From: an uncultured Latescibacterota bacterium
Lineage (GTDB): Bacteria > Latescibacterota > UBA2968
Length of the DNA stretch: 64,000 nucleotides
Assembly: GCA_951812755.1 (NCBI GenBank)
Contig: OX638329.1
Coordinates: forward strand, 5,729,563-5,793,562
Direction: 5' to 3'
In this document: piece by piece, positions 28,844 to 31,594 of the stretch
Numbering within the stretch: the stretch's first letter is position 1
How the letters are laid out: the number at the start of each line of letters is the position of its first letter
The notes under the pieces: model-generated
What the model was told of the DNA's origin: nothing
The model's input: only the letters and a program-made list of their open reading frames with translations
The model's database searches: none
Translations under genes and position numbers: made by a program

Positions 28844-30130
28844 CTATCCGTCAACCGTTTTTCCAAATGCCTCCACAAAAAGGAGAAAATCGGTAATACC
28901 AACCACACCATCGCCATCGATATCGAATTTGGAATTGGTTGATCCAAATGCCTCCACAAAAAGGAGAAAATCGGTAATACCAATCACGCCATCGCCATCA
29001 AAATCGGCCCTGGGGTTAGCAGAAGCAACCTTGACTATTATAGAAACGGATAATGTCTGTGTGGCACTATTCGGATCATTACTCGAAATAGTGATATTAC
29101 CCGAAAACTCACCCGCCGTCGAACTTGGAAACATAATCGTCACTGTCTGTGAACCATTGGGTTCCAGTGTGAACATCGTAGTATCAAACGTCAAACCCGG
29201 CACATCGCTCTCGATACCTGTTATCTCCAAATCCGCTGTACCCGTATTCGTAATCGTAATAGTTTGTTCACCTGTTTGACCTGCGTCAATCGTCCCGAAA
29301 TCAACAGGTGATTGCGGCACCTCAATCGTCGGCGCAGGTGGCGGTTGGACGATCACGGAAACGGATAACGTCTGTGTTGCACGATCCGGGTCATTACTCG
29401 AAATAGTGATATTACCCGAAAACTCACCCGCCGTCGAACTTGGAAACATAATCGTCACTGTCTGTGAACTATTGGGTTCCAGTGTGAACATCGTAGTATC
29501 AAACGTCAAACCCGGCACATCGCTCTCGATACCTGTTATCTCCAAATCCGCTGTACCCGTATTCGTGATCGTAATCGTCTGCTGACCCGTTTGACCGGCG
29601 TCAATCGTCCCGAAATCAACAGGTGATTGCGGCACCTCAATCGTCGGCGCAGGTGACGGTATCTGCGCCAACAACTCAGTAACCTTGTTTTTCACGCTTG
29701 TAACAGAACTTGCACTCAGATTACCCGTGGCGGGCAATGCCACAGTCCCATTGGGACCAACCACAACGAAATTCTCATACGAGGCTGGAGCAGAACTACT
29801 CGCATTTAGAAGCATGGGAAAGGTGATGCCTCCGTTCCTGCGAAAACCATCAACCTGTGACTGACTACCACCCCAGGTATCGAGACCGAGCATCTCAACA
29901 TTGGGGTTTGCTTTATACTCTTGCCATAATGTTTCGAGTCGCGGACCCGCCGCTTGACAGGACGGTCAGCCATATCCAATAATCGCAAGCACGAGCACTT
30001 TGCCGCGATAGTCAGAAGCACTATATGTATTGCCGTCGGTGCCTCGTAGAGAAAAATTAACCGTTTGTGCAGAGGCAGACCCTACGAGCAGAAGTAGAAT
30101 CATCGGGATGGATAATAGATATTTACGCAT
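28844..30130 (-). CDS. Candidate selenoprotein: secreted redoxin with UxxC, two ASH-like domains and dockerin-like C terminus (copy 1)
   Basis: 428 residues if the in-frame TGA at 29966-29968 is read as selenocysteine (residue 55). Signal peptide 1-21; TlpA/redoxin-like domain about 22-155 with IIGYG-U-PSCQAAGP, so TGA falls on the first Cys of the CxxC motif; two near-identical ASH/DUF1573-like beta-sandwiches (about 160-258, 262-360); dockerin-like EF-hand pair (DFDGDGVIGITDFL and DIDGDGVVGITDFL). SD AAGGAG precedes the ATG. The frame is intact on both sides of TGA, the paralogue has TGA at the same site, and a SECIS-like hairpin follows. Alternative: a Cys-to-stop pseudogene. Confidence 0.8.
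29022..29645. repeat. Internal tandem duplication (about 300 bp) in selenoprotein copy 1
   Basis: The two ASH-like domains are encoded by nearly identical DNA blocks of about 300 bp (roughly 29022-29333 and 29340-29645), sharing long runs such as GAAATAGTGATATTACCCGA. Copy 2 of the gene has only one block. This indicates recent domain duplication. Confidence 0.8.
29938..29958 (-). promoter_or_regulatory. Candidate bacterial SECIS hairpin of selenoprotein copy 1
   Basis: Counted from the base after UGA, nt 8-10 GUC pair with 26-28 GAC, and 13-16 GCGG with 22-25 CCGC, with AA bulged at 11-12. The apical loop is CGGGU (17-21), with G as its second base. Distance and loop G fit the published bacterial SECIS consensus. 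Copy 2 keeps the same loop at the same distance. Confidence 0.65.
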
Positions 30131-30248
30131 GGGATTTCTCCTTATATATTGTTTTTCACCCCCCGCCCCTCCTCGGCACGGGAGACCAGATCTCCCCTGC
30201 TCGCAGGAAGAGGGTCAGGAGGTAAAGTCCTGATAAATTTAAAACAAC

Positions 30249-30382
30249 TAGTTCATTGCGGCAAAAGAGACTACCCATATCAATCTTACTTGCGATTGTC
30301 ATTGCGGCATGGTTTTAGCCGCAATCCAGAAGGTTTTGCTGTTCATGTCTATATGGGGCATGATTTACGCCACGATGCACTA
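30249..30382. mobile_element. MITE-like element, family B copy 3 (134 bp)
   Basis: Ends TAGTTCATTGCGGC and GCCACGATGCACTA; in inverse orientation to copies 1 and 2 but the same length as copy 2, with the same interior (TGTCTATATGGGGCATGATT). It joins directly onto a truncated duplicate of the pheS T-box leader. Confidence 0.75.
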
Positions 30383-30480
30383 GCCCAGGACACATCCTCT
30401 CTGTGCAGTTGGGAACAGGTTACTTTTCTCCGTCATAGCTTTGAAAACAAAACATAGAAATTTGCGCCCAAGTATCAAGC
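30383..30480 (-). pseudogene. Truncated duplicate of the Phe T-box leader and its promoter
   Basis: Near-identical to 28733-28830: promoter (TTGATA, 16-bp spacer, TATGTT), then TATGACGGAGAAAAGTAA, CCTGTTCCCAACTG, CAGAGAGGATGTG and GGGCT. It stops at the equivalent of mid-Stem I, where MITE B3 begins. The specifier loop, T-box sequence and terminator are missing. It came along with the duplication of the upstream selenoprotein gene. Confidence 0.85.
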
Positions 30481-30505
30481 CGAAAGTCGCAAATCAAAAG
30501 CCGAA

Positions 30506-31495
30506 TTATCCGTCAACCGTTTTTCCAAATGCCTCCACAAAAAGGAGAAAATCGGTAATACCAACCACGCCATCGCCATCGATATCGAATTTGGAGTTGG
30601 TTGATCCAAATGCCTCCACAAAAAGGAGAAAATCGGTAATACCAACCACGCCATCGCCATCAAAATCGGCCCTGGGGTTGGCAGAAGCAACCTTGACTAT
30701 TATAGAAACGGATAATGTCTGTGTTACACGATCCGGATCATTACTCAAAATATTGATATTTCCCGAAAACGTGCCCACTGTCGAACTCGGAAACGTAATC
30801 GTCACCGTCTGCGAACCATTGGGCACCAGCGTGAAAGTAGAAGGTTCAAACGTCATACCCGACACATTGCTCTCAATACCCGTAACCTCAAGGGATCCCG
30901 TACCCGTATTTGTGATCGTAATCGTTTGTTCACCCGTTTGACCAGCATCAATAGTACCGAAATCAACTACCGTTTGCTGCACAGCGATCGCTGGCATCGG
31001 GGGTATTTGTTTTAACAGATTCTCAACCACTGCTTCCGTTGATCCAGCAGAAATGGATGATCTCAAACCGCTTTTTGACAATCCCACGATCCCATCGTGA
31101 CCAACGACAATGAGATCCTCCATATTAAACGGGGTACCTGCTATTCGACCTGCGTTTAGAAGCAAGGGAAAGGTGACATCCGTCCTATCCTTAAAAGACT
31201 GAACCTGAGACCGCTTGCCATTCCAAACATCGAGACCAAACATCTTAACATTGGGGTTATTTTCATACTTTTCCCAAAACGCTTTGAGTGAGGGACCCGC
31301 CCCCAGACAGCTTCCTCAGCTCCACCCAAAGGCCGCCAGCACGATCACTTTGCCGCGATAGTCAAAAGTGCTATGTGTATTACCGTCAAGGTCCTGTAGG
31401 GAAAAATCAGCAATCGGTTGCCCGACAGTTGCGGCAGAGGCAGATCCAACGATCAGAAGCAGAATCATCAGGATGGACAATAGATATTGGCGCAC
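30506..31495 (-). CDS. Candidate selenoprotein: secreted redoxin with UxxC, one ASH-like domain and dockerin-like C terminus (copy 2)
   Basis: 329 residues if TGA at 31316-31318 is selenocysteine (residue 60). Signal peptide; redoxin-like domain with LAAFGWS-U-GSCLGAGPSLKA, TGA again at the first Cys of CxxC; one ASH-like domain; the same dockerin-like pair. The GTG at 31493-31495 is chosen as it aligns with the ATG of copy 1 behind GAGG; an ATG five codons upstream is the alternative. Sequence outside the 3' part differs clearly from copy 1, yet TGA is conserved, which argues for function. Likely periplasmic or surface redox role. Confidence 0.8.
31289..31305 (-). promoter_or_regulatory. Candidate bacterial SECIS hairpin of selenoprotein copy 2
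   Basis: Counted from the base after UGA, UGGGGG (11-16) pairs with CCCUCA (22-27) around the loop CGGGU (17-21). The C14-G24 pair of copy 1 is G14-C24 here, and G13-C25 is G13-U25: both changes keep pairing. Same loop and distance as copy 1. Confidence 0.65.
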
Positions 31496-31594
31496 GGTAT
31501 TTGTCCTCATATATTAGTGAAAGAGAAAAACTGTATTTATCAACGCTTCAATTTAACAGAAGTTTCTCCACAGGTCAACCAAAAGGAGCGCGCA

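Follow-up and report, generated by a model that had tools for sequence, protein, structure and literature searches.

Redoxins with a Sec-x-x-Cys (UxxC) active site are already known among prokaryotes. The accessible text of the 2026 prokaryotic selenoprotein census lists such selenocysteine (Sec) proteins in the Redoxin family PF08534, among the Prx-like thiol:disulfide oxidoreductases of PF00578, and in a cd02966 group described as Thiol-disulfide isomerase-like (PMC13188914). An earlier sequence-only reading of the present locus had likewise called Sec in redoxin/AhpC-like UxxC proteins established. The same text describes the bSECIS hairpin by a loop of 3-9 nt with a G in the first two positions, a distance of 16-37 nt from the UGA, and an MFE of -7.5 or lower (PMC13188914). 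The proteins described below share the AhpC-TSA/redoxin domain, the Sec-x-x-Cys motif, and the bSECIS hairpin with the redoxins of this census. With the ResA/TlpA oxidoreductases they have in common the fold, predicted export, and the active-site Cys at +3, and TlpA/ResA-type proteins (e.g., PDB 1st9 and 3c71) are their nearest solved structures. NF053656 (TUGYCR motif) and NF041054 (WAxxUGC motif) are also Trx-fold Sec proteins and show weak profile similarity.

The window, a 64,000-nucleotide stretch of the genome of an uncultured Latescibacterota bacterium, contains two genes, A and B, arranged in tandem on the minus strand and flanked by a phytanoyl-CoA dioxygenase gene on one side and pheST on the other. 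Each is open from its ATG to an ordinary stop codon apart from a single in-frame TGA, which in both cases lies exactly where the sequence-only reading had put it, at the first Cys of the redoxin CxxC. The span proposed in that reading (28844-31495) gave the end of gene B correctly but not the start of gene A, whose real ATG is at 31510.

Table 1 Features of the two redoxin genes (window coordinates; genes and codons are given in reading direction, with the ascending interval in parentheses)
Feature	Position	Strand	Description
Gene A	31510-30506 (30506..31510)	-	334 aa; signal peptide, Sec-redoxin (UGSC), one ASH/choice-of-anchor-D domain, dockerin-like EF-hand pair
Gene A TGA (predicted Sec65)	31318-31316 (31316..31318)	-	First position of redoxin C-x-x-C, FGWS-U-GSC
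Gene A predicted bSECIS hairpin	31285..31309	-	UGUCUGGGGG CGGGU CCCUCACUCA; apical loop 16 nt after UGA; -7.8 kcal/mol
Gene B	30130-28844 (28844..30130)	-	428 aa; signal peptide, Sec-redoxin (UPSC), two ASH/choice-of-anchor-D domains, dockerin-like EF-hand pair
Gene B TGA (predicted Sec55)	29968-29966 (29966..29968)	-	First position of redoxin C-x-x-C, IGYG-U-PSC
Gene B predicted hairpin, gene A register	29941..29953	-	GCGG CGGGU CCGC; loop 16 nt after UGA; read by hand

The redoxin assignment is clear in the two proteins, with AhpC-TSA (PF00578) scoring 43.3 and 44.8 bits against a Pfam gathering cut-off of 26 and Redoxin (PF08534) scoring 29.7 and 32.2 bits against 26.6. Dockerin_1 (PF00404) falls just under its cut-off of 22.9 (21.4 and 20.0 bits in A and B), while the GC-type dockerin model NF041540 passes its cut-off of 29 (34.0 and 32.7 bits). 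Both N-termini are hydrophobic and end at an A-x-A site, as judged by eye, and the products are probably exported. At the DNA level A and B are 68% identical in their redoxin parts and 97% identical in their dockerin parts, which marks them as tandem paralogues. A T-box leader (RF00230, 103.7 bits; window 28793-28541, minus strand) lies directly downstream of gene B, before pheS. An intergenic, palindrome-like element (ATTGCGGCATGGTTTTAGCCGCAAT and variants) is repeated at window 30240-30330 and at L001 160-200 and 1205-1400.

The source genome, a single contig of 6.53 Mb, encodes a tRNA-Sec with anticodon TCA (73.3 bits) together with selA (580 bits), selB (385 bits), and selD (365 bits), so that all four components whose search had been proposed as a check are present; its selD carries an in-frame TGA of its own. 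TGA also serves as an ordinary stop, terminating 13 of the 37 non-overlapping window ORFs of at least 200 aa, including pheT and a sigma factor gene. The code is therefore standard, as previously asserted. Redoxins at C1:3.18-3.19 Mb, one of them with a TGA, were considered as further Sec candidates and discarded, because they carry an ordinary WCPPC and the TGA is their stop.

A redoxin domain with exactly one TGA is present throughout the class (147 relatives searched). In an alignment of 71 homologues, 59 have the TGA, always in the same column and with no second TGA within the domain; the remaining 12, which belong to the ordinary Cys TlpA/ResA proteins, carry Cys at the Sec column. Stops scattered at random, which would have spoken against Sec, are thus not seen, and Cys does occur in place of U, both in these 12 proteins and in a natural Cys version (G218) that keeps the family motif (FFGATCPIC...GIDVWN). 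When 386 genomes were searched with a profile, full-length members of the TGA clade (E of 1e-37 or better) outranked every Cys protein, the best intact Cys match being the G218 version at 2.4e-30. Phylogenetic analysis places 56 Sec sequences in one clade with support of 98/92. Downstream of the TGA, dN is lower than dS in 12 of 12 close pairs, indicating purifying selection on the sequence after this codon. Independently assembled relatives keep the same TGA, which in practice excludes a base error of the kind (TGC or TGT misread as TGA) that had been raised as a possible refutation. At the same place before pheS, both genes are found in another genome of Candidatus Latescibacterota (G009, contig JAGWBW010000074). 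A scan of genome contigs returned one close relative and two distant redoxins.

The TGA homologues co-occur with selA. selA is found in 36 of the 38 genomes with a TGA homologue, the two others (G005 and G094) being draft assemblies; of 18 genomes from other classes of the phylum, 17 show no selA and all are without a TGA homologue. The association of selA with the TGA homologue gives a Fisher value of 8e-9, uncorrected for kinship.

The bSECIS rules are satisfied by 26 of 29 distinct sequences, including both window genes, compared with 38 of 138 control windows from the same genes (28%) and 31 of 116 synonymous shuffles (27%), an excess with p of about 5e-10. A codon-controlled folding test gives a mean z of -1.29 +/- 0.20 after the UGA; of the nine control offsets, a single one (+48 codons, z of -0.9) falls outside the range from -0.3 to +0.2. 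The predicted gene A hairpin reads UGGGGG-CGGGU-CCCUCA (stem-loop-stem). For gene B, the best fit of the scan is a longer structure that overlaps the hand-read hairpin and places the loop 22 nt after the UGA (-8.4 kcal/mol). Considered by themselves, the window genes have hairpins that fold no better than those of synonymous variants (z of -0.1 for gene A); the hairpin signal emerges across the whole family.

Translation table 11 cuts each ORF at the TGA, as would be expected if the codons were nonsense mutations and the genes pseudogenes or sources of short truncated products, and in tandem copies with 97% identical dockerin ends a single mutation could spread by gene conversion. The same paralogy weakens the earlier argument that two diverged genes would hardly acquire independent mutations at one codon, and we replace it with the stronger evidence of a single TGA column in 59 homologues and a full set of Sec machinery. 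Against pseudogenes stand the retention of this codon across families and in another phylum, the selection acting past it, and the SECIS signal. A truly decayed copy, moreover, looks quite different from the TGA homologues: in G012 (C34:81960-82450; L148 ~960-1450) a TAA stands just before the active site, the N-terminus is lost, and the Sec codon is replaced by TGT (Cys). Pseudogenes, sequencing error, and an altered code are ruled out by the homologues, selection, and stop usage, and we give decay of A and B practically no credence. A reading of TGA as Cys or Trp, or plain readthrough, all without selenium, could draw on the Cys found at the site in more distant homologues; it is nevertheless very improbable, given the ordinary use of TGA as a stop, the presence of tRNA-Sec, selA, selB, and selD, and a SECIS-type hairpin under selection. 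That A and B encode Sec proteins is, judged from sequence, beyond reasonable doubt. With high confidence we interpret them as exported selenoproteins in which UGA would be read as Sec and which would act as extracytoplasmic redoxins.

Within the redoxin superfamily these proteins are set apart by their active-site surroundings. Compared with the Cys homologues, they have lost the Trp before the active site, the Pro of CxPC, and the cis-proline, so that the WCxPC and cis-Pro traits of the ResA/TlpA subfamily are absent; the cis-Pro column holds Glu or Asp in most members, and the ResA glutamate is mostly lost. In exchange they have gained a D-x-[WY]-[ND]-G-x3-Q motif beyond the strand that comes after the active-site helix. 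Unlike ResA/TlpA proteins, they carry Sec for the first Cys, and they differ from the Sec redoxins in the accessible census text in forming their own clade, in the lost cis-Pro and WCxPC context, in the new motif, and in the fused ASH and dockerin-like domains. Gene A reaches about 45 bits with the ResA model NF002854, short of its curated cut-off of 170, and none of the NCBIfam families matched by 20 members is at cut-off in gene A. Only 2 of 20 members match NF053656 or NF041054, weakly, and the active-site motif differs. The OS_HP2 (seleno)protein model NF041425 gives 23 and 53.1 bits (the latter for gene B), under its cut-off of 100; the ASH part of gene B resembles this OS_HP2/DUF1573 (seleno)protein, but the Sec of gene B lies in the redoxin and not in the DUF1573/ASH domain. 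The claim that the layout was unfamiliar has held up: no NCBIfam model covers the family, and the accessible text of the census lists no redoxin-ASH-dockerin fusion (PMC13188914). A literature search for selenoproteins with a dockerin, or for selenoproteins and Latescibacter, returned nothing relevant, and the latter did not bring up the census; a search for Latescibacter and dockerins yielded a single microbiome paper. As far as the literature and model libraries show, the novelty lies in the subfamily itself, in the surface-protein layout of its members, in their clade-wide occurrence within this Latescibacterota class, and in the link to DUF6029 described below. The family adds a clade-wide group of selenoproteins that curated selenoprotein models do not yet cover and that standard annotation truncates at the TGA.

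The layout of signal peptide, Sec-redoxin, ASH, and dockerin-like domains extends beyond A and B and recurs in the genus, the family, and the order. In the family (f1) and an order mate (f2), between one and at least five ASH domains come after the Sec-redoxin, and the sequences that reach the protein end have dockerin-like EF-hands after them. Members in another family (f4) instead continue into FlgD/Por-type C-terminal sorting domains, in one case behind an intervening serine-hydrolase (beta-lactamase family) domain, and G121, which lies outside the phylum, has nothing but a dockerin behind its Sec-redoxin. Across these relatives the Sec domain stays constant and the surface tail varies, and surface-type proteins of an uncultured class would here make use of selenium. 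The source genome holds on the order of 100 dockerin-like tails and four weak cohesin matches over cut-off, with cohesin-like domains at C1:762742 and 768954, which makes surface docking by these predicted tails plausible. A third Sec-redoxin-ASH-EF-hand gene lies elsewhere in the source genome (C1:5527177-5528539; L045 3178-4539). It is followed within ~1 kb by a multidomain redoxin gene, as is also found beside the G008 copy, where the multidomain protein includes a Cu2_monoox_C domain. In G033 (L070 70-2022, minus strand), the Sec-redoxin is joined to a serine beta-lactamase/hydrolase domain (PF00144) and an FlgD-type sorting domain.

Outside the genus of the source organism, the Sec-redoxin has a recurrent neighbor. 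All 15 class genomes with both a Sec-redoxin and DUF6029 (PF19494) among the matches listed have the two within ~3 kb, and a Cys TlpA stands alongside in every neighborhood read. The order varies between TlpA-DUF6029-Sec-Sec (G017), TlpA-DUF6029-Sec-tilS-ftsH (G019), and Sec-TlpA-DUF6029 (G121). The source genome has TlpA-DUF6029-tilS-ftsH at C1:1322579-1328315 without the Sec gene, so that a move of its Sec genes to the pheS site and to C1:5527255 is probable. A TlpA and DUF6029 also come before selA in G070 and G114, with DUF6029 directly ahead of it. These arrangements link the uncharacterized DUF6029 to selenium both within Latescibacterota and, through G121, in another phylum-level group.

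The sequences themselves establish the Sec recoding signals, membership in the redoxin fold family, and the conserved neighborhood. In the mechanism that we propose, a ribosome with SelB and tRNA-Sec would read the in-frame UGA as Sec, aided by the short hairpin ~16-20 nt downstream. The Sec-x-x-Cys of the TlpA/ResA-like N-terminal redoxin makes a cycle in which a Sec-Cys selenenylsulfide is formed and resolved the most likely chemistry. Outside the cytoplasm the enzyme would probably reduce disulfides or peroxides and may be recharged by the Cys TlpA (C1:1322579 in the source genome), itself presumably fed by a DsbD-type membrane reductase (C1:621001). The ASH repeats and dockerin-like EF-hands may keep it on the cell surface or within a complex outside the cell. 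We infer a function as an extracytoplasmic selenol-dependent reductase or peroxidase; a plain ResA/TlpA role is unlikely given the loss of the cis-proline and ResA glutamate and the changed active-site surroundings.

How the predicted selenol is used can be read in more than one way. The proteins may be GPX/Prx-like peroxidases and not disulfide reductases: Sec would attack the peroxide, with the +3 Cys as the resolving residue and the D-x-W/Y-N/D-G-x3-Q motif as activator of the selenol. This reading shares the selenoprotein assignment and differs on function only. The replacement of cis-Pro mostly by Glu or Asp, the loss of WCxPC, the newly conserved D, W/Y, N/D, G, and Q residues, the last of which we presume to be comparable to the GPX Gln site, and weak profile matches to thiol peroxidases, peroxiredoxins, and GPX all point this way. 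The best matches are still to ResA/TlpA, however, the +3 Cys never varies, which matches disulfide reductases, and the AlphaFold model is poor (pLDDT 59); a peroxidase is accordingly a serious candidate, at somewhat less than an even chance. Loss of the cis-Pro permits metal binding in Trx folds, and the position of DUF6029, beside the Sec-redoxin or, in G070 and G114, directly before selA, could suggest that the Sec domain handles a metal or metalloid (selenium, mercury, or copper), with DUF6029 as an outer-membrane channel. The neighborhoods looked at contain no transport or metal gene, and HHpred ties DUF6029 to Wzi-like polysaccharide barrels (PMC9603273), leaving metal handling improbable.

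The Sec-redoxin could be the selenium-using member of a conserved envelope module with the Cys TlpA and a DUF6029 outer-membrane barrel, passing periplasmic electrons to substrates located on the outer membrane or past it; Latescibacterota would then have duplicated and relocated the Sec enzyme and equipped it with ASH/dockerin or FlgD/Por-type tails for surface sorting. We advance this scheme tentatively and think it somewhat doubtful. Within the genus of the source organism, TlpA-DUF6029 is at another locus, so any partnership with the Sec-redoxin there would be indirect.

DUF6029 and a Cys TlpA also occur as a conserved pair (G000:C1:1322579-1324638, L151 6580-8638; L152, L153, L155, L157, and L129). 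A further lineage (G144; L159 8800-9039) has one more thioredoxin-like frame right after DUF6029, with its U in a UPGC motif.
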